Source: Mesaphorura yosii
Lineage: Eukaryota; Arthropoda; Collembola; Poduromorpha; Tullbergiidae
Direction: 5' to 3'
DNA length: 64,000 bases
Assembly: GCA_009869945.1 (NCBI GenBank)
Contig: WIXG01000084.1
Location: 186,001-250,000, forward strand
How positions within the stretch are numbered: position 1 is the first letter of the stretch; every line of letters starts with the position of its first letter. The notes beneath the pieces are model-generated. The model was not told the DNA's origin. It saw nothing but the letters and a program-made list of their open reading frames with translations, and ran no database searches. Below are positions 3,317 to 60,441 of the stretch, one piece after another. The translations under genes were made by a program, and so were the position numbers.

Positions 3317-6300
3317 ATGGATTACAAGAAGGATCAACCTGGCACCGCCAGCATCACGGATGCAACTTTAGATGAGGTGAGAAACGGGGAAACCCCTCCC
3401 GAGATGGAGATTCATCTTCTGTATGTTCTAGCATAGGGATTTGAGGCGCGTTTATCTGAAGGAAATTCTTTCTCCAGAGCACGGTGAGTGGAGATCTCCA
3501 CTCACCGTGCTCCAGAGGGAAATTGTTTCCTGGAAATTCTTCCCAGAGAACTGTTCCCAGCGACTTGCTCCGAGAGAATTGTTCCCAGAGACTTATTCAT
3601 AGCGACGTTCCCGGTCACGCTGCTAGTGAAATAGTTCCCTATCAAGAGCCAATTACATATCAATACCAGTTGCATGACCTTTTGATTTCAACTGTACTGT
3701 TACTTCTTTTATCCACAGGAAGATGAGCATTACGAAGACTTTACAATTGCAACTGATTGGGAGCAGTTCATAGTTAATCTCGAGAATATTTTACTTGATT
3801 GGCGCAACAAGCCAGTGGAACAAGAGAACATTGTCAACAACTGGGTCCTGTTCAATGAACGAACGGAATTTGCAGGTACAAATAAAATGCTGCTTTTGGC
3901 TTACTATTATTTACTACAACTAGCTATGCGTTATATCTTTCCTAGGCTGGCCTTTCAAATTCATGTACTTCCGCAATCTGACTAAGCAAACTGCAACAGA
4001 AGCATCGAATGACAAAGATGAAGCTTCGAGCTCCACAAAATCACAAACAGAGCAATCTGAATCTAATTTCCCGGCGCATCTTAGTTCTTCTGTTGACCTT
4101 GATGCTGTCGAATTTCCGCCCAAGATCACGCCACACCCAATTGCGGAATATTATAACCTGGAAGAATTCGCCGTGTTAACATCGGCAGCACCGAAGCCTA
4201 TTGAGAATGAGTCCAAAATGAAGTTATTGCTAAGCTCTGCATGTATCGCCATTAATAATACCAATACGTGAGTTTGCTTAGGACACTCATAGAGTTTTGA
4301 AAGTGAGCTATACTAATTCTTGAATGGGTTTAGAAATTTTCCTATCTACGTCCAGTATCATCACTGGAGTCAAAATTACTACTGTGGGATCGCCGAGTCG
4401 TGCGGAATTCGAACGTCTTATCAAATGATTCATTTGAGGCATGTGCCAGAGCAATATTGGTATCTCTCTGGCCTTATAGACATGTTTAAGTCCAAGCTAG
4501 CGCCTACGCTTCCATCTTCAATTCAAATATCGGCCCACTTCTTTTATACGATGAACGAGTGGCACCCACTTTACACGTTTGAGACGGAGTTATTTGATGT
4601 AATCGCTTGTCTTAAACCATCCATGACAAACCCTGTTGAAAAACCTGAATTGCCAACCGACGTAGAAAGTTGGGGTGGAGCGAAGGCGTTTACAAATTTC
4701 ATTCCTTTCGGTCCCTTGGACGATCCATTCGAGAACCTCATTTTCATCGCTGGCTGGCCCCGACTTAGCGAAGACATTGTTGTGGACAGTGCCGACTACT
4801 CCGATTTATCACCAGACAATGCAGTTGAGTATTACTTCTCTATGAACGTAAACAATCAAATTGACTATCGATTGGAGGAACTCCTATCAGGGTTTTGGCA
4901 ACTGACAAAGGAGAAAAGGACTGTCGAAGATATTCTTGGGAAGAAGTTGAGTTCTGATCGAAGTGAGTTTGCTATGTGAGACGGCTGTTTGTATACGTCG
5001 TTGATATTGATGGCTCATTTTTGTTTTCGTAGACGACCCGGAGTATATGTCGGCGCTGGATCGAATTGCCAATGCGCATTTACCGCGGCCTGCCGCTACT
5101 CTGAATCGAGTTATTACAACCGTGAACAAGAGAGTACAAAAGCAATTGCTCTACTCGCCAAGCCTAATCGACACGGCGCCTTTGCCCCAAGTGGAAGTAA
5201 CATTGATTTTGGGATACTTGTTTCCTGATTCATTAAACAATCCAAGATATCCGTATCCCACTAGTCCGATATCTGACAAGACGCATCTTAAGAAACACGT
5301 GGTAAGAAGTCGTTAATCCTTCCGAAACTTCTAATGACAGTGCATTCCCAACGAATGTGATTTTAATGGGTGAGCCATTTGCAGGATGTCCTTCAAGGTG
5401 TGAAATCCGCTCCTATCGGAAGTTTGGTGTGGAGGCTGTCAGTAATCATGTCATACTTGTTCGCATTTCATCGTAATGAAGCCTCAATTGCTTACTTGTG
5501 GGTACGTCAAGCTGATAAGCCACCACCGCCGACATAACAGTGCTCTATTCATTCTCATATAATACGAATTTTATTTCAGGCTGAATTAATATTGGAGCTG
5601 CGATTCAGATTCGAAAATTCCATACTAATCGTCGGGTAAGTCATATTTTTATTTGTCAGCTTTAGCTTACATTCATAATCTTAATCTAGGCACAATTATT
5701 GCATTTCGCTTGCAATGCTTATAAATGTATCCAAAAATGCGGCATAAATATCGTACATTCTTTAAGCAAAGGACAGAGCACGGAATGTGGTCGGGAACAA
5801 GCTAACATACTACAATTCTGTAATTTTGTAATTAAGCTTATTTAGGACTGTTACGCTATCGACACATAAGCTAACGAAGTCACCTACGCTTACGCTTTAT
5901 ATTTCTATAATAACCAGTGGAAAACCTCTCGCATCCTCACCCTCTAAACCCTGTAATATAAACATAGGCTAACTTTAAAGAAAGTACAGATTGCCTTAAA
6001 GATGGCGGAAGATTTACAACGAAAATCAGTGTACATAAAATATTACAGTTGGACAAGATGATCGCGCCTTGTGTGATTTCGCGTTACATACACATCCATG
6101 TCATGATCTGTCCAATTATCTGGAGTTTCGTACCCGCTGACGGTGTTTGCAGAGTCACTGCTCAGTTTTTTTGTGCTGCCTCTTTCTCGTTTTCGCCGTC
6201 TTTGATTTTGCTCAAACTGTCTCTGTGACGTGTGACCGCTGAGTTTATTGAGACCATCCTGCGATGATCGCAGAGACCCAAGACTTGCCCGAAGCAACCG

Positions 6301-9300
6301 ACTCTGGTTGTTCAAGTAGTTGCTCATTCCTGCGGCAGCTTGGTGATTGCGGCTTGAAATGTTCTGTTTTGTGTAAGAATGATTGTGATGAGCGTGGTGA
6401 TTACTCAGATAACTGCGATGGGTGGAGTGTCCATCTGGAATTGTTCGTTGATGTCCATGTTGGTGTTGGTGTCCATACGCGTGGGTGTGAGGCAATGGAA
6501 TGATCGGACGCGACGGACCGTTTCCGATCGCTGGTCCGTCCATTGTGCCATGATAAATTTGAGCTCTGGGAATGCTGCGGACGGACATGGCGGACATTTG
6601 GTCCCATTCTTTCATGTGATTTAAAGAAGGCGGTTGGGTAGCGGACGATGTTGTGACTATCGTAGTAGGTCCTGGAGAGTTTGATGCAAAAGAACCAAGT
6701 GGCACCTTAGACGAAGTAACAAAATAATTCTAGTCAGCAGTTAGCACAAAACCATACGAGCCCAACTAATCAATGCCTACGAGGATCAGCAGAGGCAAAA
6801 TTGCTAAGACGCGTAGAATTCAACATTCAGCCATAAAGATGAAAATGCCAAGGCCACTACTTCTTTGACACTTCTTCAGAATCATGCAGCGTCCTTACCT
6901 TAGCGATTATGGACGGAGGAGGTCGACGATTTTTGGCTCGTTTTGTGATTCCAATAAATATCAGCACAGCTATCAGCACCGTAACTGTAATAAAGGCAAT
7001 AATGTTGAGACTCTTGCATTGCATCCTGCTCTGGCGTCAGACCATTCCGCTTACCACAAATTGCAGCACTTGCTCCTATCGTAATCTTGTCCATGTGATT
7101 CATGAGAGCTGAAGGAGAGTTTGGTCTCAGTTCCTTGCACTGACTTCCTGGAGGAATGGAGGAGGCACTTGGGCTGATTTCATTGTATACGATTTCCTCG
7201 TATGGAACCACGCAAATTACAATGCATTCCTGCAAAACAACGAGAAAGTCCACAAAGGCAAACATAAAGATTTTAGTCACTAAAGGATTGAAGCAACAAA
7301 GGACTCAAATGTTAGCTTACATTGTAGGGGATGTTTTGAAGAAGGTAGTCACGTTCAGACGCTGCTAATGGAGGACTTCTTTTAAATTTGTCGTCGCCGA
7401 ACAGGCGATAAATGACTCGGTACACCGTCTGCCTCTCTCCGTCCCATTGAACGATCACCGTGTCTCCATGCCGTTCAATGTTCCTGATGACGATGTCCGG
7501 CTTGTCCGCGAATATAAGATTTGGCGGTCGAACCGGGGAATAATGCGACTGCTGATGATGAGAATGTGAAATTGATGAGCTGGTGGGACTTGGCGTGGTA
7601 TAAATTGTTCTCGGACTCGGAGGTGACGTGGTTGTCGTAGTTGATGGCATTCGGACAGGAACTACGCTGCCAACGTTCGAACTCGGTGCGATCCGTGATG
7701 GTCCAACGCCAGTTATGACTGGGATTTTTGACTCGTCAATGTCGAGTGCCGTGTCAACCGACTGAGTCGGTCTGTTTCTTGGCATTTGTACTGGAGTAAT
7801 TGAAGCTGTGGAACTTGTTGGTCTAGGTTTCATTATTACACTGTTGCCAACATTTGCATTTGCCGACGCATGTTCTGTTCTTGTCGTTGTTGTGCTAGCT
7901 GGCGTTGTTGCATTTCTAGTCTGATTTCTGGTTGCGTCAGCGTTAACTGAAGACGAAGAACTTGTTGAGCTGAGGCTTGTGCTTGTCGAAGTACTTGTTA
8001 CCACTTTGGGTTTGGGCTTGAGCCGCGGTCGCAACTGCCTGAATGGTTTGATGGACTGCAAATTCCGTGGCAGTGGTGTTGTCGTTGTCGATCCTGTGGC
8101 AATTGTTAGAATTGATGGACGGACCGATGGCCGAAACGTGCTTGGCTTGTAATCATCCGAGTCTTCCTCTGTTAGTTCAAGGGAATTAGCTGTAGAAGAA
8201 GACGCGGGAGAATTTAGCAAAGGTGACCGTTCACTGGAAGACGCTTTCGCTGCTGAGGATTCGTTTTGTGTTTCTTCCCCAGCGTAGTCTCCGGCGACCT
8301 CTTCTTCGCTCTCCCCATCTTTGCCAAAATAATTTGAGTCCAGTCCCAAGAGAGCTAAATCTGAGTGGGAGAGGTTTAGGTTGTATTCTGTGGTCGTGGA
8401 TTTTGACGTAGAGGATGACACCACTGTATCGTTCTGCTTCTCGCACTTGAAATCTACAAAACAAGTTTAACAAAGAGTTTACTTTCCGAAGCTGCACTGC
8501 GCCAAAGATGTTCGCGTGCCGTACCTTCTGCTTTAAGTTGATAGAAATTGTGCTCCCGCAACTGCGGTGGATTCCCACAAAACTGCGGATCTCTTTCTCG
8601 GCTCGTGACTTGAAGGTCAAAATCACGCACCCATTCGGCGATCCATTTTACATGACAATCGCACACGAGAAACCGGCCTCCCAGGCTGATTCCGCGCAGG
8701 GTCGCGTTCAATTGTTGAAATGAGACTGCTGGCAATGTTGTGAGAGGATTTCCATCAAGCGCAAGTAGGGTCAGCGAGTTCAGCCCGTTGAACGCGTCAG
8801 CTGGAATTTCGGTCAGCAAATTGAACCCCAAGTCCAATACCTGTTAGAAAACACGAACGAATTTGATCTTCAAAACCAAGTTATCTGGATCTTTATGGTT
8901 TCTGTTGGTCACGTTTCGTAAAGTAAGTGAAAGACGTCTTGTTACATCTCCCAACATGAGCACGAACGCGGTGTTCACGTTCATGACACAGATTGATAGG
9001 TTAACTGCCTGATTATTTATGCTATTCGAGCCAACTGCCAAATGTTACGATTACGAGTGCGAGAACAATCTTTTAAAGAGTTGAGAAAGCCTGCCCGAAA
9101 GACAAAAGGTTGTTTTCTTCGAGTTGCACAATAAAATCCAGTTATGCCGTGCATCTCATCCCATGTGGCGCGTCCTGCCATTGCCAGCCAGTTTATTGCA
9201 ATATAAAATAGGTCTAATTCACGAGTGCTTGACACTTATTACGATTTGATTTGGTCGAATTTTGCTAATTTACGATTCTTCGTAATTTATGGACTTGGAC

Positions 9301-12300
9301 TGGTTCGACCTCACCCGAGCCATGTGCTAACTGCAGTTTGGGAGATTTAATGAGGTTCGAAGTATTCGAAGAATGCAGACAGGCATTGTGAAATTATGTT
9401 GGGTGTTAGTGAATCTGGACGTGAATTGTGATGCGAATGGGAAAATATTCGGCACGAGTATTTTTCCTCTTAAGGGTTTTATCATGCATTCCGTCTATTT
9501 AGCGTTTAGCTAACATTTTGCCGTTAGACTTAAGACACATGAATGGAAGGACTTACTCGTAATTCTTTTAGCGTATGAAGTGCTTCTTTTGGGAAATGAG
9601 TGATGAGATTATTGAGCAGGCTAAGTGAACTCAGCGTGTCATTCACACCAGTGAATACGGTTGGTGGCAGCGCTTGGAGTAGGTTCCTCTCGAGATTCAG
9701 CGCTGTGAGAGAATGCAGGCGAACAAAAGGAAGTGGATTCAAATCCCTGAGACGATTTTGTGCCAGATCCAAGAATGCAAGTGTTGAAAGATTCGCAATC
9801 GCATCAGGAATTGAACTGAGTCTTGTTCCTGTAAATGGCAAGTTACAATTACGGTTTGAACGATGATTTAATTCAATGGTCGCTCGTTTTCACACGGTCA
9901 TGGCCTGTTACGAGTTACGAGATGAGAATCATTTACCTTTTAAATTAAGGTTTCGTAACGTGTTCTCAAGCCCTTTGAATGCATTCGGTCCCAGTTCAAG
10001 GTTGTTGTCATTCAGCTTCAAAGTCGCAAGCTTTGTGAGCCTCTCAAAGACTCCTTGCGGGACTTTTGTGATTTTATTGTAGCTAAGATCGAGAAGCCCC
10101 AAGTTTCGCAGTCGATCGAGACTCGCCTTTGGCACGTCCGTGAGCAGATTTTGTGCGAGGCTTAGGTGCTTGAGTTGAGACTCTTGTCCGCGGAACGCGT
10201 CAGGGTGAAGCGATTTTATGTCGCATCCTGACAGCTGGAGGCTCACCTGGAATTATGATACCAAAATTAAGAAACTGTAGCTCAATAATTTCAAACTGCT
10301 AGCTGCAGGTTACCATTTTCAAATCTCGGAAAAGTCGTGCAGGAACTTGTCCATTTGCGTCGGCCACACGACTTGCATTCAGATACAGAAGTTCAAGCGG
10401 TTCTTTAGTACGATGGGCGAGCAGAAGTGGAATAAGTTGCTGCGCCTCAATTTCAAAGCATTGGACACTGAGTTGATTATTTAGCGACGGGTTTCGGGCA
10501 CAGAGGCAGTTTGTTTTAATCACTGGCGCGATGCGTGGAGTGCTTGTGCTGGGCCCTGCTGGGAACGACTCAACCTTGGCTGTAGTTGTCGGAGTGGCCC
10601 AAGGACAGTCCTCTTCTGCTCCTTCCGTTCCGGTCATTAGCAAAGAGAAACTAAAGATAATGGCAATTACGTGATGAAGTGACATTGTCTTGGTCATAGT
10701 CGTGGTCGATGAATTGGGCGATCTTTGCTTTCCGGTGCATTTGCTGCGGCTGCGACGTTTGTGACAACTTTCTCGGAACATTATTTGCTTATTTGCTCCG
10801 CTCTCCTTCTCGTTCTGGGGGCTTCGTTTGTCGTTTACGACGCGGTCGTTTTTGCTATTGCTGTTGTAGTTGTAGAATTTGCGTAGAATTTCTCCTGCCA
10901 CATCATTATCTCAAATCCGCATCAGCATATGGCAAATATGGCGCTGGTCTGTTTTGTCTTGCTGTCTTGTTACCCTACATTTGCGTACCTAATTATTCTG
11001 TATTATTCTTATTGAATGTTCGTGACTTTTTCGTAATCTTCTCTATTTGCTCTTAATTTATTCTTTTATTATTGCACTTTTTATTATTTCATTGTCTTGA
11101 ACCGTAAATATGAAGAATGAGGTGTTGATTATTCCGTTGCTCGTATTATTTCCTTCGCCTCGCTCTGCCTGCCTTCTCGTGGACTTTCCTTTTAATGAAC
11201 GAATCTGTAACAAAACAAATGTGCAAAAAATATGACAAATCAAGATTTATTATCATTATCATCAGCAGCTACAGCCACATCATCATCCTAGTTTAATACT
11301 ATTAGTTTCTCTCCGTATGCAAAATGGCCTGTGTACTGCGCTGCGCTGAGGCGCAGTTGCTGCCTCGCCTTTGCTGGGTCGTATTTGTTTTTTAAATTAA
11401 GTTGTGTTACACGTACAAAGACACTGAAAAGTCATTAACCCAATATTTTCGACATTATCGTGAGTGTAAATTGTGAGTCCATACAAAGGGAAGACAAACG
11501 AGTGACGATGAGTTTGAATTTTTGAATAATTTTCTTGAATGATCACTTTTACTGACCATACGAAGCAAATACGAGTAACGAAGGCCGGGGCGCACTGCTT
11601 TGCATTGCATCTTTGCATGTAATCAAGTTAATTTGCTCCGATCTCAGGATGGATACGCGTCAATGCGTCACACGTCTGCTGTTGCATGTGTTGGACTTTC
11701 ACATACAAGAAAAAGGATGCAAAATGTAATTGGATACAGATCTAGGAAACTAGAATATCGCGTCGTAAAAGCGAGCACTGCGATGAGCGTGAGCGCATTT
11801 TGGGGAGATTTGGTAATTAATGTGCTTAAGACTTAATTGCATACACGAAACGCTGAAACTGAAACGCATTACGCATGTTATTTGTTTTCTGAATTTTATG
11901 ATGCTTACAACTTTGGTTTTGGTGCCTGCATCGAATAAACAATAAGACATTTTTCACAGATGCTCGCTTGAGTTCTGATTGAGCACGGTAGCATATCGCA
12001 AGAAGCGAATTGACTTTCTTAAGCATGTGCTGTCTGTTGTGATGTATGCTCGTTACCTTAATGAAGCTATCAAACTCAAGGAGCCGCCAGGCTCCTATTG
12101 AATCTGTCATTTGGCTTGGCAAGTATTCTTGGACGTTGACCGCAAATTAAGGACACATATTTATTGGTCATTGGCAATTCAATGCTCAACGTGACAATTC
12201 TGAGTAGCAAAGTTTCTAGAAGATGAAAGTGGCAAGTAAATATTGGAGAGATAAAATCAAACAAGATTGGAAAGATTGTTCTTTTAAATTGACTGATGCT

Positions 12301-15300
12301 TAGTCGTGCGCGACGTTTGGTTGGAACTTGGAAAAGTTGGGAGTTGTGACATGGCATGGCTCTTCCCATCATGCATGCGCACAATAATTTCATCGTGCGA
12401 TTATGAAAGAAAAGAAGTAAAAGTGAAGTTGTTCCATTGTTACAGCGCATGAAGTACTGGTTTTGAATGTGCGCGTTGCATATTGTTAAGTGGTGGTGAT
12501 GACGATGTATCATCGAGCAAACAAGACTTCAATTTTTTAATTCAGTTTTTCACGCGAATAAAAATTGAACGCGTTCTATTTTTTGAAAACCACACAAAAG
12601 TCAGGCGTCTGTGTGGCGTGAGCGCTGAGCCGGTCTGGTCGCATGACAAAATTGACCAACTGCTGCACCAAGTGGCAAGTGCAAGGGTAAAGAAATCTAA
12701 AAATGAATTATGGCCAAAGCCACGAGCAAAGGAGAAAAATGCCTTCCTGTGCCTTGTCTATTGCCGATTGCCAGGCTGTGGCTGCTCTTTAGTTTACTTT
12801 TGTTGATGCGTCTTGATAAGCAATGGTAAACTGCTGGCTGGCTGCACGACCGGCAGTGATGAGAAATTATCCCAAATTGAATTTTTTTTTGCATCTTTGC
12901 ATTGTAACCTGCAGACAGACAGACGGTCGCATCTCATCGTCGTATTATGTTCACATTATAATAAGCTGGGAATGCTTCAACAAGTCCATGATTTATAGTT
13001 AAGAGAACATCACATCTAGGTTACGAGAGTACGACTTTGAATACTTGAAATTGGATATGAGCTCTGACGCTCTGAGTTCTTTGTACGTATCTCGAGAAGC
13101 CGATTTTTGAGTTTTGACGGCATTCGCGCAGTGAATTCGAAGAGTTCCCAATTGTCATTTTTATTTATTATTTACGTTGAGCATTCAAATTTTTTATTGT
13201 CATTCCCATTGTTGTTGATATAATCTCTACGCACGGGCAAATTGCATGCAAACGCGAACGCACGCTTGATGGACAGAGAGACAGAATACGGTTAAAGTGA
13301 GAAGGCGAACAAAAGGAGGTTCGATCTGCGAGATGAGGGCAGGAGGCGCAGGCACTTTTCCGCAGTTTACGCCACGAGTAATTGAAAACATTGTTCGGCT
13401 GGTTGTAAAGCGTAATTTGCTCAATTTTCCGAGTTTATGAACTTGACATTTCTAAAATCTTGAATCGGCGTATTTTTGCTGCCATTTTTCTTAGCAATTC
13501 TTGGCAATTGGGTCAACAGCAAAACTGCGATGGATTTCTACTCTTTTGATCAGCCTTGTCTTTTGGTTTTTGGATACAATAGATTTTGACTTGACCCATG
13601 CTACTGTCACGTAGCTTATCGAAACTGGGCTTTCCCTGTCTCATTCTTGCTGTCCATTCCGTCTTATTACTTTAATAGCGACTGCACATTGCACATTGCT
13701 CTGATTACTGTCAGCTCAAGGCACTGCGCTGGCGCGGCACGCATCACACATGATTGAGTAATTCTGTACTTTCTATGTATTCTGCTTGTGTGTTGCGGTT
13801 TTATTGCATCTGACTTCTTCGCTTTACTTTTCCCTTCTGGTAATCGTGTTTGTTGATTGTTGACAATGTGAGCGAGTTTATGTTTAGTGTGTTATTTAAA
13901 ATTGACACACCAAATTAAGCGACAACGCGAACGCCGAACACAAAGCAAAGCGGTGCAAGCCGAAGTCCTCTGCGAGTGCCGCCGTGCGCGACAAAGAGTT
14001 ACGCCTACACGCCACGTTTGCCTCGGCTTCTTTGATCTGCGGCGGCAGCAGCAGCGTGATTTTGTGCTCGTGTTTGAATTAAAATTAAGGATTTGCAATT
14101 TACAAGTCCTAAATCGGGGTGCTTTGATTCTGCAATGCTGCAATTACAATTACGTTGGCAAGAACAATATGCTCTAATCCTGCCCTGCCGTTTGTGAAAC
14201 TAAATTATTTTGACAGGGCAGCGTCCTAAAGTTGCCAAACAAGAAGTAATTAGCAGTCATGTAATTAAGTGGCCGCATCATAAAAAGTGTTGGACTAATT
14301 AAAGGTGTTTAGTCGTTCAGTGTTGTGTTTATGAGTTTTAATTCAGGGTGGAGAGAAATTGAGAGTCATGATGTAATAAGCACGTAGGACGAATAAGGGT
14401 TAATAAACGTTTTCACTTGCAAAAACTCGGCATGGCCGGAGCTAGGCTGCGTACCGAATATGAATTGAAATGTGTGCCGTACCAAAATCATTGTTACGCA
14501 TGTTCACATTCGAGTTTCGCGTACTCGACCCAGCCACAGCTGTCTGCCTGTCATTTTCAATTTAATTTGCACGTTGAGCGCTCCGCTCTTGTGCTCTAAC
14601 TCTGACTGAGATGGTATTTATCGTTATCGCTCTCGATCTGCTCTGCCGCCTTGAGTCTGATGACGCTGATTATGGAAGTGGGTGATGATGAATGAATATT
14701 GCAATTGTGAAGCAGATTGCAGAAATGAGATGATCAATCTTTGACACATGGGCATAAATTAAGTATTGGATATTGCTTGATTTCTGATTTTTCAAGCGAA
14801 AGTTTGTCTATTGGCTATAGTTGGTCTCATACTGATTGATCACACGTGAATTTGGTAAGAGTGATACGAATTTTGAGTGATAAGGGCATAAAGTCTTGAC
14901 CAATAAGGAATTTGTCCTCTTCGTGGCTCTGCTGAAACAGCGTCAGTACTTGTGTGATGCCATGCAAAATTGATTGTCATGATGATCCTTGCAGTCGAAT
15001 CAGCCCAGCAATCATCAAGTTCATTCATTAACTCGTAAACCCTGCAGTCTGAAGCTTGAATTTTGACAAGTCATTGGACACAGCTGAGAGCTGAGCCCAG
15101 AGTTGTGTCATTTTGTCCTCATTGGAATTAGAATTACGGCGCTGGGTGCTGCTGCGTCGATGCTAATGACTGATGTAACTGATGTTAAGTGGTTAATTGC
15201 CATGAAAGCTCTGTATGGTAAATCCGTTCTTATTCGACACAGACACAGAATCATTTCTATAGCCATTATTGTGAGAACTATGAGCCATTTTCAGAAAATG

Positions 15301-21300: not shown

Positions 21301-24300
21301 GTTGGAAAGGAGTCTCTAGCTTAGCTTTAGCTGCACGAGGCACGGTGAATGATTTCGTCTCTCCACACGGAAGTAGAAAGAGGCAGAGATTCAGAAGATT
21401 TATAAAGGCATTATTATTTTAAACCTTTCTCACCATGCCATGGCCGTGTCCATTGCTCTTTGTAACTTTGTTCTGACGGATTACCGTACGTTGCGCCTTG
21501 CAATCAAAAATATATTAAGTCATTTCAGGCATTCGCATTCTGACAGCGGACTAGGCTAAGGTAAAAGATAAATACTAGACACATGAAAACAAGAATAAGA
21601 ATGCCATTGCCAGCTTACAATTATTGCTATTGCATTGCTTGCCATTGCGTTTAATTTATTTGCGATTGCGCTTTAGTGTATGACTAAAACAAATAATGCT
21701 AGATACACACGAAACGACGGAAAGGATAAGGTAAAAGGTTCATGCACTTGTGCATCAGAAAGTCAAGAAATTGCATTGTGCGAACTGGTTGACTGAATTT
21801 AAGCTGCGCTCTGCGCTTGTTCGTTTTTGGCGTAAGTACGAATGAAATAAGGAAGAAAAGCTACAAGCGTTTTTAAGAGCAAGTGCAAGGCAGCGCATCG
21901 TATCTGTATCTTAGTCTGTATTGCGTTTTCACATTACTCTGCTCCAATTTCACATACAACGGAAGTCATCAGAAAAACTACGGGGCAAAAAAAAACACGA
22001 AAAAACTTATTTATTGCGTAAGATTAAGAAGGGTCAGAGAAGAAGAGCATTTTTTCGAATAAATTATAAATATTTATAATTATGGCATGGCGGAAGGTGT
22101 GTGTGTAACGGGAAAGGAACAAACATAAATTACGTGCGCAGATTTGTTCCGTTGCCTTCCACTGTACTGGCAGCGTCTGGGATCTGCGATCCAAAGTGGC
22201 CGTTTTTTTACTAATCACAACAAAAATGAGAAAGATGCGCTGGCGCTGGCTCTTTTATTCTCCTGGGACTGGGACCAAGCTGATAAATACACAATCCATG
22301 CTGTGAACATTTTTCGTATTTTTGACACATGCCTTTTGTATGAGTAAGCAAAGGGAATCTTTTCTTTTGCTTCCTCCGTATTTAGTATTTAGTTCAGTGG
22401 GCAAAGATTTATCGTGATAATGATGATCGCGAATCGCCTAAGGTTCCGGCTCATAACTGTATTGAATGAATAATTTCTTAAACAAATGCATGTGAGAGTC
22501 TCCAAATTGGAGCACACTACGAGCAAATTGCTGAGAGATCAGAGAGCAATCACGAATCATGGTTTGGCTTCATTTCATGACTTCGTAACGTTGATTTTCG
22601 TTTCGTGTGATTGATTGGCTGGATTCAGGACAGGATTCTAATTTCCAAGTCTAATGTGAACACGAATGCGGACGGCATCATAATAAATCATAAACACGAG
22701 ACGCGGAGGATGTCGTGTGCTTACTGGAAGCATGACACTGACATTCGCAGTTATGTTCACAGTCACCGTCGCAGAAACTAATTGGCAGAATTCTTGTAAT
22801 GATTGGCTTCCTGTGTGCTCTGCGCTGCACGATTGACTCTAATGACTTAATAGGGTTGGTTAGGTTCAATCCGAGCTGGCTGAGATGAGATTTATTGCAG
22901 TACACGAACCTCATTACTCATGGCAAGAGCACGACACAACGGTTGAGACACAAAATAACAATGTGAACACATGTTATTATGCTCTCGCTCGTTCGCTGTT
23001 CTCTTTCACCTTAATTGCGATTGACATTTTGGTTTAACCACAAAAACATGTAATTTTTCTGTAATAATCTCGTCTCCGCTCTTAACGAGACGAGACTTTG
23101 CTTCGGGCGACTGATTTGTCTTCGCGAGTGAAAACCGACTCGCATCGCAGCCCATTAAAAGGAGAGATTTGCTGCTGGAATTTAGTCTGCTCGTAATAAT
23201 TCTTCTTATGTCATACGAGTGTCATTGTGTCATAAATTCATGTAATCCGTGTGTAGTGTGCATGCATGCGTTTTTTGTGCGCGTTCGCGTATTTACTTTC
23301 TGTCTTCTATTTTAATGAAATTGATATGCATGTGAGGGCAAGGGCATTTCTTCCAATGCAAGACAAGGCCGAAAGGTCACTCCGTACAAATCATGACAGA
23401 GTGTGAGTATGAGCATTGTTTACGCTCTTTTGTCCATAATTTATTCGAATACGAGGCCTAGCTGCAGACAATGTGCAATGGCAATGACAATGTCAAAAAT
23501 ATATCGCTTGCGCTCGTATTATGAATTGGCTCGGGCATTGTTGGTGTTATAATTTTGGACGTCTCACACTGAAAGACTGGGCTTCTATTCAGAACGATGA
23601 CATGTAAGATGTAAATGTGAATAAGAACAAGGCAGCTGTCCGTCTCACTAATTATGCGTTATCCTAACTAATTGGCATTGACAACTGGCTTCGCCATTCG
23701 TACTGCACTGTTAAAAGATTCCGAGCAAGATTTTCTGAGGAAATTGAATTTTGAATCATATTTGATATGGTTTGGGTTTTGCCACTGAGCATGTGCGAAT
23801 GCTTTGTTATTTCCTTTGAACCAGAAAGCATTTAACTCGAAATTACGATTAACTGCCTTGCCTTTGCTGTTGCTGCATTTTCTTCAGCAATCGGTTTGGC
23901 ATGGCCGCCCTTGTGCTGCCCATCAAAATCAGTCCGTGTGGCCGGAAATCTTTCATATATACTTAGCATTAGCACCATGCGTGTGCATATTCTTATCCTT
24001 CAATCACGACATAATGCACAATTGTTGGAGCGTGCATCTTGGCTGGCTTTGTGCTCTGTATCGATACAGGTATTTATTACCTCCAATTTACTGTACTTCT
24101 GCCCAAGTACTGTTAATTGCTGCACGTACATTTTCCCTTCCATTTGAAGCAGGACGATTATTAAGTTGTCAAAATACAACAAAGCAAGTAAAAGTCTCGC
24201 ACGAAGAAGTTATGCAATTTTCCCGCATATTAACTGAAATCTCAACTATTCTGGTCTAATCTTGTACCGTATGCATTCAAAATTGAATATTGACACGTTG

Positions 24301-27300
24301 CGTATTTCGTATTGACGGCCACAGCTCAAATGTCATTCATTCATCATCGTCATCGCCAATTTGATTGTTACTAGACCATGTGACTCGTTTCGTTTTCTTT
24401 CGCACACAATAATGAAGAATTGAAAAATGAAAGACAAATTAAAGGCAATCAATCTTCCCTGCATGGATATGGAATCTTTGTGGCTCCGTGCATTATTATT
24501 TTTAATTGGCATGTTGCTAACTCTGATTAATGTATTTGATGAAGCACTTACCCGAAATATTTGACTGCTCACGCACACACACAACGGCACTCACGACTAA
24601 ATCAGCGGAGTGTTGAGGGTTGAACGTCCGTACTTTGACTTGCCTTCGTCAATGCGCTCAAAATTAGCACACGTTAATTTGCTTTTAATTATCTGTTTAG
24701 CTACGCGTACGCGTTCGCCACGAGCAATGCAGCAATGTCACATGCAAAATGTTCCGGTGCTCTTACGTAACAATAATAATGACCTAGCGAGCCTAAATGG
24801 TGTACCGTGTTGTTGCTATTTCGTTGGCCTTTACGTTGCCTTGCCTTTACGTTGACGCGTGCCTGGCGATTCGCGTGAGAACAATGAAATCTGAGATATC
24901 AATCTATAATTGCTGAATGCAGTTGACTGACTGACACTTTTTTGCACTTACGCGACGGCTACGATGATTATCGCAGTAGAGTAAAAGTACGGGACTTGGT
25001 CAAAACACCTTGTTACATTTTCTTGAGCCTGGTAGCCTGATTTATGTGAGTTTATGCCCGACGCTGTTGGATTTTATGAACTTCACCCGAATTATGAGCT
25101 TTTAATAAAAGTTATTTGTTTCCTCGATACCACATTGCACAAGTACGCTGTAGAAAGTTCGGTAAAACTGTTTCGGCACACACCAGGCCACAAAAATGTT
25201 CCGTGACTTTTCAATTGAGTTGTTGGTTGCTCGGACACTTGAAACGATCTGCTTTCGCGTTTATCTTTTCGTTGAACGAACGCCCAAACTTCTGTCAGTC
25301 TGTCTCTTTCTGCCCCTCTCATAACAATGTGAACGGTACGCGTGATACGTTTGTTCGGCTTAACCAAAATCTTCAAGTGTGAAGGAATGAGCCAGCTTGC
25401 AAGCCGCATTGCATCGAGGTAACGAGTATAGTGTAAAGTCGCGGTAGCAAAGCAAAGATTCGTTCGCAGAACTGCACCACTCTCAGCCTCTCAAATCTCA
25501 GCGTGCGAAGTGACTGCGCCTCTCTTTGAATGCGTGCCGTTAAAAGTTAAAATGCGTGCCACAGTCACAACTGTGCAACAATCAACAATGCAACGTCAAC
25601 GTGAGATTATACTAGCTACTGAAGTATTTTTAAGATCTTGCCGAAAAATTACGTACGCCTTGCCTTACGTTACGTGCTAATCTTTTTGGGACGATGCAAA
25701 GCAGCGGCAATTCGGCAACTCTTTGCTGGACTTTAATTCATAAATCAAAATATTCTCCTGAGCCAATTCCGCTTTCTATTCTCCTTCGCACCACTGCGTG
25801 AGTGATTATGATTGCGATTAGATGCACGGCTTCACTAGATTGTGGGTTTTGGCCGTTTTGGACTGCGGCGCCTTGTGGGCTTAAAAGATTCCAGCAGCAG
25901 AAGCAACCGCAAGCAGCAATAATTGCATTAAGAAAAGTTGTGAGCAATGAGCACAAAAGGGATTGGAAAGAAAGAGAATTTTAGTAACTTCATGCAGAAT
26001 GGGATTACGAAACCGTAAGTTACTTTTTGTAGTCGAAATTATAATCGGACAGAAATATGATGCATTGCAATTACAGGCACTGCAGTGCAATTAAAAGTGA
26101 ATCTTCTGACGGTAAGTCAGGCCTCGGATTTACGGCTAGAACTGCGAGATTTTAATTTATACACAAGGGCATGACACTTGATCTATTGATCCCGTGTTCC
26201 CGGTGTGATGTAACGTCATTATCATTATCACATGGCAGTGGCAGTGACGGACTTTGTTGTATTACTTCTCAGGCTCAAACTGTTACTGAGTTACGGAATT
26301 GACATTGTAGGCATTGTGTAATGTGTGTAATTGTGATCTCGATCTCTTTTCAAGAAAATCCTGTAAATCTTTTGAGCCATTGCGGGCTGACGTTGAGCGC
26401 GTCATTTGTTCAGATTTGCGGATTGCAGAGTTTGTCGAACTCTTCCACAGGATGAATTTGATATGCTACGATTTAATTACCATTACGGCAAATGTCTTGA
26501 GCAGGTAAACAAAAGCCAGTAAGAAAAGCAAAGAGCAAATAATCGTTCAGTCACAGCACACCTCAACGGATTCTGCGTTGGTTTTTCCGAGTAACCTTAA
26601 ACTTGGTGGTGGCGTGTCGTGGTTTTGAATGAGAAGACGGATCCGAGTCAGTTCAAGCACAAAATCACGTCTCGGTGTGGTAAAATAAATCTCTTCTGAC
26701 AGATTACCTGACTGAAGTTGACAAAAATGACAAGAGCTGAGCAAATATTTGTGGTTTCGTTGCGGAAAGGAAAAGTTGTCATACTAAGCCGTCTTCGTTG
26801 CATTTCTGGAAACCATTAATTAAGTCTTTACCTGTCTACAACAAATACGCCATACACGTAGTACAGCTTTCTCAAGCCAAGCCGAGAATGGGCAATTTAT
26901 ATTCATGATTCGGTCGTAAATCATCTTTATGCATACACACTTGTCTCTTGTATCTTGTTTAGCTTGCTGCCTGCTGTAACGCAACGCAACGATCGTTTTC
27001 GATTTTTAATTCTTTCATCTCCTTACAAGACCGCTGTTTCGTTTCCTTCCTGCCTTCCTTCTTTCATCCGCTGATGCTGATTTACTGCGTATGCTGTAAA
27101 GTAAAGGGCTTCTGTGTAGTCTCAAACATCTTTTTCGACTTCGGCTGCCGTGATTCGAAATTTAATGAATGAACTGCGCGCGGCTCGTGACTGCGGGTAG
27201 AGTGTTAATCCTGAATTATTTCGTATTACCCAGCGCAGCACTCAGCACCCTGCCTGTATTCCATTCCATTTTGCAATCTTAATCTGAATTGAATAGTCAC

Positions 27301-30300
27301 ACGACACATGACGACAATGGCAGCGGTGGCGACGGCGGCATCACATTAAAGGCCCAGGCCTCGACAGACACAATGGGTTCATTTCGAGCCGTGATGGCGA
27401 ATTGCCTCATAAATTGCCATTTGCCGTTTACGCAATTCACGCGTGCGCGTGCGGGCGGGTTGAATTCACTTTCAACACATGTGAGTGACACGCGACTGTC
27501 AACTCGTCAACTCAAGAATGCGTTTGGCGTTATTAAAGCGATCATGATTCATAAAATCATGATCTTCTGAGCCTGATTATTGCGGTTACGAAAAATTAAT
27601 AGTCGCGTCCTGCTGTGCATTGCGCATTTGGCAGTAGGCAGTAGCAGTAATTGAATTCCTTCAAGACACTACATTTAAGGAACAGGATTGTTGTGGGTTC
27701 GATCGAACGAGTCATACACGCGCCGGAGCGCCGAATCTGTTTGTATTTTGTCCTACTCTAATTAATTCACTCGCATCGTGTATTTTAATACCTCATTGTG
27801 TATTGTGTAGTGTACCAGTAATTATGCGAATTCCATCCTAATTCAGCATTTCTTCCACGAATTTCCCCACACAGCACACATGAAACCACTTAACCTAATT
27901 AAATTTAGTGCGAACTCCGTCTCAATTCATAAAGTGATGAGCAATGAGCCGGGCTGGTTACTAAGCAAGTTGCAATAATGGTGAAATCGTGAGATAGAAA
28001 ACCGCAAGAATAGAGCCGACTCATGGCGGTGTTGATTGTTGATGATGGCGGGATTATGATTTGGTTTATGATCTGTGATATGATGTGATGTGATGCAAAT
28101 TCAAGCTGCATTGTTCAAGCGGTGGTAACATTAATTAAATTGTGATGGCATTTACTTAATTATTTAGCTTGCACCGCACTGCACTGCACATTGCATAATC
28201 AAGTCAGATGAAACCGCGAGGCGCGTCATTAATGCGGAAATTGATATGCAAATTAGTGCGAGGGTGAACACGATGCTTGCTTCGTTAAAGGTGTTGTCAT
28301 TTTATGTTGTGATTACGTGTTGTTCTTGTGAGGTGACAAGTTTCCATTGATTTCGAACCGGATGAACTTGATTTATTCAATGACAGACGTCAATACAACT
28401 ATTATTACGTAAATAGCCGTAAATGCTTTCCATCACATGTATTGTATGTTGTTTTGATCTCTTGGGCTTTATTTTACTAGTACCCAACGATTTTGGTAGT
28501 TATTGGCACTCCCGACCCTGGCCTTCACTTCTCCTCGATTGAATGTTGGTGAATGGAAATGGGTTTAGGTTAATTAATGCGATTTGTATCGCCCCGCCGA
28601 CGACGACTTCTTTTATTCAGTCAGTCGGTCTTACCTCAATCGCAGATTTATCCTGGCGCTGTGCTGATCAAATGGCTCTTAGCAATAACAACTTGTTTGC
28701 CACAAGATGCAAACTATTGCGCGTGTCGTCTTCCTATCATTACTGGTATTAGTTAAGTTGACAAGTGGCCAGGACATCTTCAGTTTCTTCAAGCTTCCAA
28801 ATTTCATCCGGACCTTGCGAGCCCAAAGCATCACACAGGATTCAGTTTACTTCTACCTGTATGCGGATCCATCGTAAGACTTCATTTTTCCATTACCGTA
28901 CACGGATTCATACATTTTATAATGAGTCACGTCGTTGTCTGCAGCAATTTCGATTCCTTCAATGAGCTGATTACGGGAGATGTAGCCCGACTGAAAGAGT
29001 CAAAATACAGAAGCGATCTCCCGTTGACGTTCCTCATTCATGGTTTTAAAAATAATCACACAACAGATTTCTCCAAAACTCTGGTCAGAGGTAGAAAACT
29101 CAATAAGGCTTGAAGTAGTCAACGTCAAAAGTACAATGATTTTGTTTCTCCAGCCTACTTGAGTGCGCACTTTCCAGCCAACATTGTCAGCATCCACTGG
29201 ACGGGCGCAAGCCCTTTTCAGAACCCCCTTCTTCCTCAAGATTTATTCTACGCTGTAGCTGTGGATAATATTCCACCCGCTGCCAAGTTGATAGCTGAGT
29301 TCCTGAACTTTTTAATTGAACATGGTGGACTTACAAATGTAAGGATGAGCAGGATCATAATTTTTAGCGCGGCAGGTATTGTAATTGATTCGTACTGTAA
29401 ATTGCAGGAAAAAGTGCATATTATTGGCTTTAGCTTGGGTGCACACGTGGCTGGTGTGACTGGACACATGTTCTTTCAAGCAAATCATCGTAAAATCGGA
29501 AGGATAACTGGTCTCGATCCTGCAAAACCCTTGTTTCAGTTCAAGAGTAGAGACGGGAAGCTAGACAAGAGTGATGCTCAGTTCGTAGACATTGTTCACA
29601 CAAATAAGGGAATGAAGGGAACGGACGAAATCGTGGGGCATGTAAGCACACCCAAATGTTAATCTCACTGTTTAGTATTCTATGTTGTGGATGGAATCCT
29701 TTATCTTAGGTTGATTTCTTCCCGAATGGTGGAGGGCCTCACCAGCCCGAATGCGCAAATATTACTCATTTCACTGATATTGTGACCGGTGAGAAGAAAA
29801 CACTTCAAAATCTTACTGCAATGTCTTACGTTCATTCTTTCCGAAGGTACATGCAGTCACGCAGCTGCGTACAAGTATTTCTCATCCTCCATTAAAGACC
29901 CCAAAATCCAAGCCTGTCGGTGCCAATTAATGGAGACTGATGAGCCGAGAATTTCGACGATCGAATGCGTCAAGTTCGAAGACGAGTGTGTAGACCCCGT
30001 CGTATTTGGACAGTATTGTCCGCCAACGTAAGATTTGGAATTCATAAATATTACACGACACACTTGTCGGAGTTCATTTGTGTGGTGCATTTCTAATACC
30101 TGAATAGGGCACGAGGTGCGTATTATCTGAACATAACTTCGGATGGGCTAGAGCCTGAAACTTGGTATGCTGAAGATTGACTTCGGTTGGTTACGAAGAA
30201 TCTCGTCTTATGTTGTTCTACTCCGTTGTAATATTCAAACCCTTGCTTGTAAAAGAATGAAATTAAAAGCAAATGATAAACAAACCCTCATTAAATGTAT

Positions 30301-32855
30301 ATTAGCGTTCGGATCGCTGAAAGTGATAATTGTTGTGATTATGATTGTGGAAATTAATAGTTCGCTGCTTAAGCGAGGCTGAAACCATCCATTTAAGATA
30401 ATCGACTGCAGAAGCAAAGCAGTAAACCGAGGCAGATGAGAGGAGAGCGCCTGCGTCTTTTCTTCAAATTATGAAAATATGAAATCCTTTTACGCAAGCG
30501 CATTTAACTCCATGATTTATTGGCACTTGTGCTTGAGTGCTTGCAAGGCAGAGCAGATTCAGGTCGCGCGACACAATGGTGCATGAAAATGTGTGATTAA
30601 ATTAAGTCACATGTGCGAGAAGAGTGAAATTTCTAATTCTTCTAAAAATATCATCCTTCTTTCTTCTTACGCGTAGTCCATGCTGTGCTATGCTGCAGAA
30701 AGAATGTGAAAATTTAATGAAAAGTGGTCGTGTGGTGGCTTCACTGACTTTTTAGCAGTTTCGTGGTTTTTATGGTTCAGAGCCGTTTATGAAGCTCTTG
30801 TGAAACTGATCTCGCTCTCAGCGTGAGTCTGAGCACATCCACAGCCTGTACTTATGACTAGTTAGCGAGCGGTTGACTGTAGTTAACACGTTCTTATTAA
30901 TAAACTACGATAATGTGGCGTGGGGAGGATGATTTTTATTGAAATTGAAGCGAGTCGGTTTGAGAACCCATAATTTGGTGCGCTGTGCGCTTGATATTTA
31001 TGCCATTCTATTGTTTGCTTGCAGCTTTCTTGCTTTATGCGTTGGGTTGCGAAAGAAATTTTTGCAAATCTCGCCTAATTAAAGACGTGCTCACTTTAAA
31101 CATTGTTGACTGACGTTTTAGTGCGTGTATGTCTTTCAGGTTGGAATCCGGGACACCAACTCTGAGTACGTGCCTCCTCAATCAGAAATTACAAATGCTG
31201 AATTGCTGCATTGAAAGGAAAATCGCACGAGAGGAACAAGCCAAGAAGAAACCAGCGGACGAGGAATTTCTACCATCGGAAGCAGAAGGTTCTTTGCTTC
31301 TGATTAATGTGCTTAATAAAAATCTAACAAAAATGTGCCGTATGTTATAACTGAACAGAAAGCGATGATGAATTTTTCGACTGCGAAGACGCATTAAACA
31401 TCGAGGACGTTAACAAAGTTGACAAAGCCGTTGGAAGGCTTAAGAAATTTGGCAAATTCAGGTTACTGAAAACTGGAGAACCGCTTTTCGTGCCGATTAC
31501 TCAGGTACATTGTTAAGCTGTGATTCCTCTGGTCGGCTATGCACAACGTTAGAACTTGCTTCATCTTTTGTATGAATCAAGAGTAGAAATTGTGCAAAAT
31601 TAAAGAACTCGAATCAACATGCAAAATTTATTATCATTGTGCTTTTGTGAAATGCCGAGTTCAACAAATCCCAAATCCGATTGTTTAAACGAGTTTATAT
31701 TTTATTAGGACACTGGTCCCTTGACCGAGGACATAATCGAAGAACAATCAAAATTCTTAATTGAACTGGGTCCAGACGCTGAAGGAAGCGAGCAAAGAGC
31801 AAAAATTCTGAGTATTTCTCTCACGTCGGACATGCAAGCCTTTAAGGTAGGCTATAAGCCAACGAACTTCCCAACTGTTTTATCGACAATGAACTCACTT
31901 TTGTTCGTTTCTTGAGCAGGCAGCAAATCCAGGTGCTTGCCTCGAAGACTTTGTGAGATGGTATTCGCCCCGCGATTGGATTGAATTCGAAGAAACAGAT
32001 AATTTTGGAAATCCTCTCGGAGAGCTCAGTCCGAGAATGCAAGTGCCAGGAAATCTGTGGGAAGTGAACTGGTCAACCGCTCAACCTGTTCCCGTTCGTC
32101 GCCAAAAACGACTATTTGATGATACAACGGAAGCCGAGAAGGTGCGTACTAAAAGTATCCAAACCCTTTGGTGTGCAATTTCTTATAGCAATCTCTATGC
32201 GCAGGTTCTGCAATGGCTGACTTCGAGAACATTGAAGCAAATTACAGAATTGCTCTTCCCGTGCTTATTGCACGTGTCATTGTTAAAATTGCTGGACGAA
32301 GCAGATAAGCTGCCTGCGGATTATGAAATTCCTGTCACTGTCAGTCAGAAACTCGCCCAACTCCTCAGAGCCGGTGTGGTGCCTGCAGAGGATGACCTGA
32401 TGAACTCCGATGGTATTCGTGTTGGAAGCATGCTGTACTCGTTCGCCCGAATTGAGCGCGACATCTCTCAACTCCTGTCATTCAACCAGAAGTTCCCTCA
32501 TCTGCCATTGAATGATGTTTTAATGAAGGTAGACACAATACAACCGGGTCCGGGTCTCCGCCGTCTTCTTCCAAAATTCATTAAAATAGAGGACGGCCTT
32601 ACCTCCGAACTTGGGCTAAGAGTCAAGGACATTTTCCGGAAGGAGCTGGAAATTCATCAATTAGTCGAGGGTGATTTCCAGTTTGGTATCCCAAGCAAGC
32701 GAGTATTTGTACTGAAATACTTGCCTCCGTCTGATAAAAGGAAGCTAAGAAAATGTAATCCCGATTTAAGTGTACCTCATCGAATGAGTTGTTGTTTGAA
32801 AAAAGATGAATTTCTAGTCACAGGAACTTTTTCAAGTAAAGTCGACATTTGTTGA
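3317..32855 (+). CDS. RAB3GAP1: Rab3 GTPase-activating protein catalytic subunit, with a 25.5-kb gene-bearing intron
   Basis: This is the catalytic (p130) subunit of the Rab3GAP heterodimer. It stimulates GTP hydrolysis on Rab3 and exchange on Rab18, in synaptic exocytosis, autophagy and ER organisation. Exons: 3317-3376, 3719-3875, 3946-4267, 4334-4962, 5033-5301, 5385-5501, 5580-5635, 31140-31288, 31359-31504, 31709-31846, 31920-32141 and 32205-32855. The product is 971 residues; the human protein is 981. The N-terminal half has the family blocks around MKLLLSSACIAI, IRTSYQMIHLRHVP and HLSGLIDMFKSK-like sequence. The C-terminal half has CLLNQKLQMLNCCIERK, DFVRWYSPRDW, RRQKRLFDDT and a C-terminal FxxTGTFSS. 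The essential human arginine (R728) is expected near the RRQKRLFDDT strip. The junction 5635/31140 restores a GGG codon and the family sequence without a gap, so both halves are one gene. Intron 1 (343 bp) is enlarged by a repeat. Confidence 0.93.
3477..3512. repeat. Perfect 36-bp palindrome in Rab3GAP1 intron 1
   Basis: Eighteen bases (3477-3494, beginning GAGCACGGTGAGTGG) are followed directly by their exact reverse complement (3495-3512), with no spacer. Each strand carries GGTGAGT, which resembles a consensus 5' splice site. The palindrome sits at the left edge of a degenerate tandem repeat and shares CCAGAG flanks on both sides. Confidence 0.9.
3513..3640 (+). repeat. Degenerate tandem repeat, unit about 14 bp (copy 1)
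   Basis: The stretch reads as successive variants of GAATTGTTCCCAGC / GACTTGTTCCCAGA. Examples are GAACTGTTCCCAGC, GACTTGCTCCGAGA and GAATTGTTCCCAGA, one after another. It lies in intron 1 of Rab3GAP1, between the palindrome at 3477-3512 and exon 2, and accounts for most of that intron's extra length. The same family recurs near 63.6 kb. Confidence 0.75.
6043..10697 (-). CDS. Leucine-rich-repeat / fibronectin-III transmembrane receptor (Lrt/FLRT-like architecture)
   Basis: This is a type I membrane protein of 1112 residues, likely in cell adhesion or guidance. Exons, 5' to 3': 10697-10314, 10246-9937, 9828-9557, 8840-8525, 8453-7321, 7229-7055, 6984-6899 and 6705-6043. A signal peptide follows MTKTMSLHH. 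A cysteine-bearing N-terminal cap comes next, then about ten LRRs (about residues 128-360, motifs such as LGLLDLSYNKITKVP). An LRRCT cap begins CDCHVKWIAEW. A Ser/Thr-rich, probably O-glycosylated stalk spans about residues 430-720. One FN3-like domain (about 722-820) is followed by a transmembrane helix spliced from exons 6 and 7 (ITIGASAAIC + VTVLIAVLIF). The cytoplasmic tail of about 235 residues has a His-rich part and ends VQL, a possible class II PDZ ligand. An in-frame ATG at 10781 is an alternative start, but the one used here places the signal peptide at the N-terminus. The gene is antisense inside Rab3GAP1 intron 7. The exact orthologue is uncertain. Confidence 0.87.
17482..17657. 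promoter_or_regulatory. Cluster of homeodomain-type core sites
   Basis: Five CAATTA/TAATTG hexamers fall within 176 bases, starting at about 17482, 17522, 17610, 17621 and 17652. These are generic homeodomain cores. The cluster lies about 6.8 kb upstream of the LRR receptor start, inside the long non-coding stretch. A regulatory role is inference from motif density only. Confidence 0.3.
27540..27564. repeat. Short inverted repeat, 10-bp arms, 5-base loop
   Basis: GATCATGATT and its exact complement AATCATGATC flank the loop CATAA. The context is non-coding. It could form a small hairpin or be a dimeric binding site; no function can be assigned. Confidence 0.6.
28707..30180 (+). CDS. Secreted lipase / phospholipase A1-like enzyme of the pancreatic lipase family
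   Basis: This is an alpha/beta-hydrolase fold esterase acting on acylglycerols or phospholipids outside the cell. Exons: 28707-28873, 28945-29090, 29154-29338, 29408-29641, 29710-29788, 29847-30027 and 30108-30180. They give 354 residues. The N-terminus is a hydrophobic signal peptide ending near LTSGQ. The catalytic triad is complete: Ser175 in GFSLG, Asp203 in GLDPAKP and His275 in GTCSH. The oxyanion-side motif FLIHGF is in exon 2. The lid cysteines (259 and 273) enclose only 13 residues, and there is no C-terminal PLAT domain. Both features are typical of arthropod lipases and phospholipases A1 rather than classical pancreatic lipase. The gene lies wholly within Rab3GAP1 intron 7, in the same orientation, about 1 kb before the host acceptor. 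All seven exons join in frame. Substrate is unknown. Confidence 0.92.
30181..31139 (+). other. Non-coding gap between the nested lipase and Rab3GAP1 exon 8
   Basis: About 960 bases hold the lipase 3' UTR and the end of the host intron. Several ATTAAA-like hexamers occur between 30.25 and 30.30 kb, but none is decisive as a poly(A) signal. I see no further exon before the host acceptor at 31138-31139. Confidence 0.5.

Positions 32856-33955: not shown

Positions 33956-60441
<26,486 letters not shown>

Follow-up and report, generated by a model that had tools for sequence, protein, structure and literature searches.

The locus raises the question of whether one intron of a Rab3GAP1 gene carries two further genes, or whether the long interval between the two parts of the coding sequence has another origin. 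The window, that is, the whole 64,000-nt stretch of DNA analysed here, was described in a first-pass annotation as holding two complete genes on opposite strands within a 25.5-kb Rab3GAP1 intron, with an insertion made by the assembly as the alternative. We examined the host gene, the integrity of the sequence, the two nested genes and the DNA between them, and compared the arrangement with known cases. The window spans 186001-250000 of contig C84, whose length is 250,255 bases. Coordinates are collected in Table 1.

Table 1. Predicted features of the Rab3GAP1 locus and of the other nests discussed in the text
Feature	Position	Strand	Basis or remark
Rab3GAP1 coding exons 1-7	3317-3376, 3719-3875, 3946-4267, 4334-4962, 5033-5301, 5385-5501, 5580-5635	+	spliced model, phmmer
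Rab3GAP1 coding exons 8-12	31140-31288, 31359-31504, 31709-31846, 31920-32141, 32205-32855	+	spliced model, phmmer, Pfam
AATAAA	5648-5653	- (receptor strand)	10 bp from host exon 7 splice donor
LRR transmembrane receptor gene, predicted	10697-6043	-	CDS of 8 exons, 1112 aa
Receptor exons	10314-10697, 9937-10246, 9557-9828, 8525-8840, 7321-8453, 7055-7229, 6899-6984, 6043-6705	-	hand-made model
Receptor intron, 70 nt	6985-7054	-	good splice sites; puts hydrophobic segment in frame
Stretch without convincing coding sequence, 18,009 bp	10698-28706		upstream of both nested genes
Pancreatic-type lipase gene, predicted	28707-30180	+	7 exons, 354 aa
Lipase exons	28707-28873, 28945-29090, 29154-29338, 29408-29641, 29710-29788, 29847-30027, 30108-30180	+	hand-made model
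FMN-reductase-like gene, part, in junctophilin intron	about 47.5-48.3 kb	+	PF03358, E 5.2e-18
Axonemal dynein light-chain gene, part, in junctophilin intron	about 49.1-50.1 kb	-	PF10211, E 8.2e-30
tim2/timeless, TIMELESS domain	contig C55, 37387-37814	-	profile match
Later tim2 exon	contig C55, near 15.4 kb	-	human TIMELESS 767-815, E 2.3e-4
LRR gene with Ser/Thr-rich stretch and hydrophobic segment	contig C55, about 23.3-32.5 kb	+	ORFs

The two parts of Rab3GAP1 fit one predicted transcript

Splicing the genomic sequence by hand gave a Rab3GAP1 model of 12 exons on the + strand (3317-32855) with a single open frame of 971 aa. Exons 1-7 (3317-5635) encode the N-terminal 536 2/3 codons, while exons 8-12 (31140-32855) carry the Rab3-GTPase_cat domain and the stop. 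In the spliced model they are separated by intron 7 (5636-31139), a phase 2 intron of 25,504 bp with GT...AG ends (donor CGTCGG/GTAAGT, acceptor TCTTTCAG/GTTGGA), which is about 75 times as long as the next longest host intron, the remaining 10 measuring 63-342 bp.

A phmmer search of PDB sequences returned human RAB3GAP1 (8vyb_A) as the sole distinct match (E 1.8e-142), with residues 12-593 and 610-788 of the 971 aligned. The first of these stretches crosses the exon 7/8 join (at residue 537) ungapped, and there LRFRFENSILIVG-LESGTPTLSTCLLNQKLQMLNCCIERK is aligned with MRFRWENNFLIPG-LASGPPDLRCCLLHQKLQMLNCCIERK of the human protein. Residues 789-971 gave no significant alignment to 8vyb_A in this search, and residues 942-967 resemble the human C-terminus below the threshold. 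PF13890 was found by Pfam search in the C-terminal half (E 1.6e-57), and a profile search of the 93-Mb, 1127-contig assembly located it at one locus only, as two exon matches that both belong to Rab3GAP1. The host is identified as Rab3GAP1 because the similarity extends over most of the protein and takes in the Rab3-GTPase_cat domain. When a 272-residue part of the protein was compared with genome_contigs and viral_contigs, 33 and 3 pattern matches, respectively, were obtained and none was confirmed.

The splice sites, the phase and the homology across the join all fit one predicted transcript for the exons on either side of intron 7. The first-pass claim that the two halves join exactly was thus borne out by the phase 2 junction, the open 971-aa frame and the ungapped human alignment; the short size reported there for the other introns also held, except that its upper figure of 343 bp was measured as 342 bp. 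We also considered whether Rab3GAP1 has been split into two transcription units that give half-proteins or are united by trans-splicing. The 25.5 kb between the halves would suit such a split, but a donor and an acceptor that are both intact and agree in phase, a join like that of the human protein and an exon 8 that begins mid-codon argue against it so strongly that we find it scarcely credible.

Misassembly of the long intron is improbable

The other explanation, in which a piece from elsewhere was wrongly assembled into a short Rab3GAP1 intron, would agree with the 63-342 bp of the other host introns. However, the window contains no N bases, and the DNA around the two intron ends (5400-6200 and 30600-31500) matched itself alone in the 93-Mb genome, in a DNA search that skips very common words. 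Repeats of 24 nt or longer are absent from the edges of intron 7, neither the splice sites nor the phase is disturbed, and a similar layout is seen at the neighbouring junctophilin gene and at the tim2 locus elsewhere in the genome (see below). Unique junctions, a gap-free sequence, intact splice sites and frame and the lack of edge repeats weaken the assembly-insertion alternative of the first-pass annotation, and we regard it as very improbable.

The intron encodes an antisense LRR receptor and a sense lipase

Both nested coding sequences (6043-10697 and 28707-30180) lie wholly inside the host intron. The antisense gene, modelled by hand from the genomic sequence, has a frame that is open from ATG to stop, and there is an additional in-frame ATG upstream of the chosen start. 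Its leucine-rich repeats (LRRs) were recognised by Pfam (LRR_8, E 7.5e-47), and its other features were read by eye: a hydrophobic N-terminus comes before the LRRs, which are followed by a Ser/Thr-rich stretch, one hydrophobic segment (AAICVTVLIAVLIFIGITKR, the candidate transmembrane segment) and a Ser/His-rich tail. An apparent frameshift before the membrane segment disappeared once the 70-nt intron listed in Table 1 was spliced.

The stretch before the membrane segment is FN3-like by eye only. No fn3 match was found in Pfam at E 0.01 or at E 10, although most weak matches (above about E 0.1) are removed by the HMMER filters in the E 10 run, and the comparison with PDB sequences gave two chance matches only (E 0.69 and 1.4), neither of them FN3. 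Hence, of the "LRR-FN3" receptor previously proposed, the LRR part stands and the FN3 part is without Pfam support. A genome search with the LRR part (437 of the 1112 residues) gave 82 matches; four of them fall on exons of the gene itself, and the best of the others shows 34% identity. At the sequence level, the LRR part has no close copy elsewhere in the genome.

The frame of the sense gene is likewise open from ATG to stop, and its N-terminus is hydrophobic. The product contains a lipase domain (PF00151, E 3.8e-53 in Pfam) and is matched by 15 distinct PDB sequences (e.g., 1w52 and 4qnn). Residues 46-290 align to 1w52, taking in GFSLGA as well as the CSHAAAYKYF region, with GFSLGAH aligned with GHSLGAH of 1w52; we take GFSLG to be the serine nucleophile motif. 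Compared with the pancreatic lipase family (PF00151; 1w52, 4qnn), the nested lipase is an ordinary member.

Pancreatic-type lipases are numerous in this genome, which gave at least 67 exon-level matches; seven are the exons of the nested gene and at least 60 lie in other places, the best-scoring of these being 41% identical. Separately, lipase exons 2-6 (28945-30027) amount to 825 nt and start and end in phase 2, as host intron 7 does, and if spliced between host exons 7 and 8 they would preserve the Rab3GAP1 frame free of stops. This in-frame cassette may be due to chance, as such phases are expected in about 1 in 9 cases.

The boundaries, the open frames and the family matches confirm the earlier description of two genes on opposite strands in the 25.5-kb intron. 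With gene structures, frames, strands and unique junctions as observed here, it is very likely that a single Rab3GAP1 intron accommodates two independent protein-coding genes, an antisense LRR receptor and a sense lipase.

The 18-kb stretch between the nested genes

Nested coding sequence, stops counted, occupies 4,404 of the 25,504 bp of intron 7, and about 70% of the intron lies between the two genes (10698-28706). Searches for Rfam families and tRNAs gave no match in the whole window, and intron 7 contains no tandem repeats and one short two-copy repeat. The segment 14000-20000 matched itself alone in a DNA search of the 93-Mb assembly. Between the nested genes there are nine stop-to-stop ORFs of at least 100 aa, eight of them without a Pfam match at E 0.01; a sub-cut-off match of the ORF at 11829-12146 (- strand) to Phage_Gp15 (E 8.5e-4) was regarded as chance.

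We then scanned the stretch for codon usage with a model trained on other genes, with a separate background and with the known genes left out. At a threshold of 10, three small matches were found and 14 of the 27 known exons were recovered; at a threshold of 14, nothing was found in the stretch and 8 of the 27 were recovered. An earlier scan had used the stretch as its own background, which biased it towards a null result, and of the 12 host exons it failed to detect about half. Since the codon scan recovers at most 14 of the 27 known exons, small exons may still lie within 10698-28706.

The word YAATTA, which we take to be of the homeodomain type, exceeds its first-order Markov expectation at 14-17 kb (z 3.6), 17-20 kb (z 4.1) and 26-28.7 kb (z 4.5), is hardly in excess at 20-23 kb (z 1.6) and 23-26 kb (z 1.7), and shows no excess at 10.7-14 kb (z 0.5). 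There was also none in the junctophilin stretches 38.7-43.6, 44-47.2 and 50.4-56.2 kb (z -1.1, 1.5 and 0.9, respectively), and 3 of 12 bins of contig C55, which carries the tim2 locus, reach z 3.7-5.0. Since the word was chosen after looking at the sequence, its excess is a hint and no specific proof of an enhancer. The simplest guess is that the 18 kb would mainly be cis-regulatory DNA of the LRR receptor gene, which would explain both the roughly 75-fold length of the host intron and a nest that is hard to break up.

How host and nested genes may be expressed

According to the first-pass annotation, transcription of the host must pass through both nested genes, and this follows from the anatomy, since host exons flank them. 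The Rab3GAP1 pre-mRNA would run through the whole intron, which we assume to be removed in one step because intron 7 has no canonical recursive splice site (AG/GTRAGH) on the host strand, the two matches in the intron both lying on the other strand. Each of the three genes would have its own promoter and poly(A) site, and the three separate transcription units would work independently; in the cells in which the nested genes are active, they would cost host transcription some time and occasionally end it prematurely. As the nested genes keep 7 (receptor) and 6 (lipase) introns, they are not retrocopies; an origin by a move at the DNA level, or by growth of the intron around the genes, is likelier.

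Between host exon 7 and the stop codon of the receptor gene, the AATAAA listed in Table 1 is the sole canonical one, and it may serve as the poly(A) signal of the receptor gene. Its use would place the end of the receptor mRNA at about, or just inside, host exon 7, antisense to the donor. The position of the AATAAA, 10 bp from that donor, would suit a functional coupling in which nested transcription controls Rab3GAP1, for example if antisense transcription of the receptor gene truncated or switched on Rab3GAP1 in neurons, or if transcription of the lipase gene triggered intronic polyadenylation. Precedents are described in several papers: in neurons of the worm, ceh-10 switches on a short form of polq-1, its host, and opposite nested pairs are said to be co-expressed not rarely (PMC12274878); transcription of Mcts2 triggers polyadenylation within an intron of H13 (PMC13309782); and interference can arise from nested genes (PMC3192792). 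Against this, PMC3786989 describes no functional relation between 2mit and tim2, and a comparison of 109 human and 752 Drosophila pairs is reported there to show no significant expression correlation. By analogy with these cases, interference or co-regulation between the host and the nested genes is possible, whereas actual control of Rab3GAP1 by nested transcription seems to us unlikely. We keep to three independently working units, and the layout makes interference between host and nested genes directly testable.

Comparison with known nested LRR genes

Nested genes in introns are a well-known animal arrangement, in which antisense LRR genes recur (PMC3933685). According to PMC3786989, about 6% of Drosophila genes are nested, 2mit is nested in intron 11 of tim2/timeout in a layout shared by Drosophila and honey bee, and 2mit mRNA is lowered by an insertion lying some 20 kb upstream of the 2mit coding region. 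The present locus is alike in having an antisense LRR receptor gene inside an intron of a broadly needed host. The predicted receptor (1112 aa) is close in size to 2MIT (1141 aa), for which the same paper describes a similar layout, with a signal peptide, LRRs, a Thr/Ser-rich stretch, one transmembrane segment and a Ser-rich tail; the likeness is one of described layout, not of sequence alignment. Far-upstream regulatory DNA inside the host intron is reported there for 2mit, whereas for the receptor we only infer it. Unlike 2mit, the receptor has Rab3GAP1 and not tim2 as its host, and a second, sense nested gene accompanies it.

In vertebrates, LRRTM genes are antisense LRR transmembrane neuronal genes in large introns of alpha-catenins, again an unrelated host. 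PMC3933685 reports 19 old nested structures that were not found in frog or chicken, and in 12 of them the nested gene belongs to the LRR superfamily. LRRTM is a vertebrate family with another host, and is likened to the receptor by layout and not by sequence. Literature searches found no publication on genes nested in a Rab3GAP1 intron and, among the papers listed, none other than PMC3786989 that mentions 2mit.

The known LRR-in-intron cases are extended by the present locus with a further host and with a double nest of one antisense and one sense gene. The opposite-strand pair, the 18 kb in which no convincing coding sequence was seen and the other nests make the case somewhat more interesting; the Rab3GAP1 double nest alone alters no general view. 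A broader idea would be that, in this otherwise compact genome, long introns serve to house a nested gene's regulatory domain, with nervous-system LRR receptors lying antisense together with their whole enhancer territory, host exons bounding it and the nest being very long-lived (2mit/tim2, receptor/Rab3GAP1). We consider this unlikely.

Other nests in the same window and genome

The layout is no isolated case and its rarity is unsupported, as a second intron of the window and the tim2 locus of the genome are of the same kind. Next to Rab3GAP1 lies a junctophilin gene on the - strand, whose exon at 43.7-43.9 kb matches junctophilin-2 (7rxe_A, E 1.3e-42). Its first MORN exon ends at 56212 and the next starts at 43945, leaving an intron of 12,266 bp (43946-56211) with matching phase. 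This intron is a second double nest of the window, with at least parts of two genes (Table 1).

On contig C55, tim2 exons lie on either side of a putative LRR gene of opposite strand, read from ORFs, with the LRR match at 28013-28327. A tim2 exon at 34.1-34.3 kb matched human TIMELESS at E 0.62 only, and a small exon next to it gave no match. The TIMELESS_C profile and insect odorant receptors found no match in this genome and none in the control genomes either, and are uninformative.

We also considered whether the receptor in Rab3GAP1 is 2mit relocated to a new host. We set this aside, since the tim2 intron already holds an opposite-strand gene with LRRs, a Ser/Thr-rich stretch and a membrane segment. 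Because this better positional candidate sits in the genome's own tim2 intron, the receptor in the Rab3GAP1 intron is probably not 2mit, and by position the LRR gene on C55 is the likelier 2MIT orthologue. The apparent tim2 nest bears on the lifetime of such nests: if the arthropod is not an insect, it would be older than the approximately 300 million years to which it is dated in PMC3786989. The genome is taken to be that of an arthropod from its RR-type cuticle proteins, a family that marks this group, with 66 matches to Chitin_bind_4; a search for COX1, meant to place the organism, found no match. In all, three such nest-bearing introns were seen in the inspected parts of the genome.
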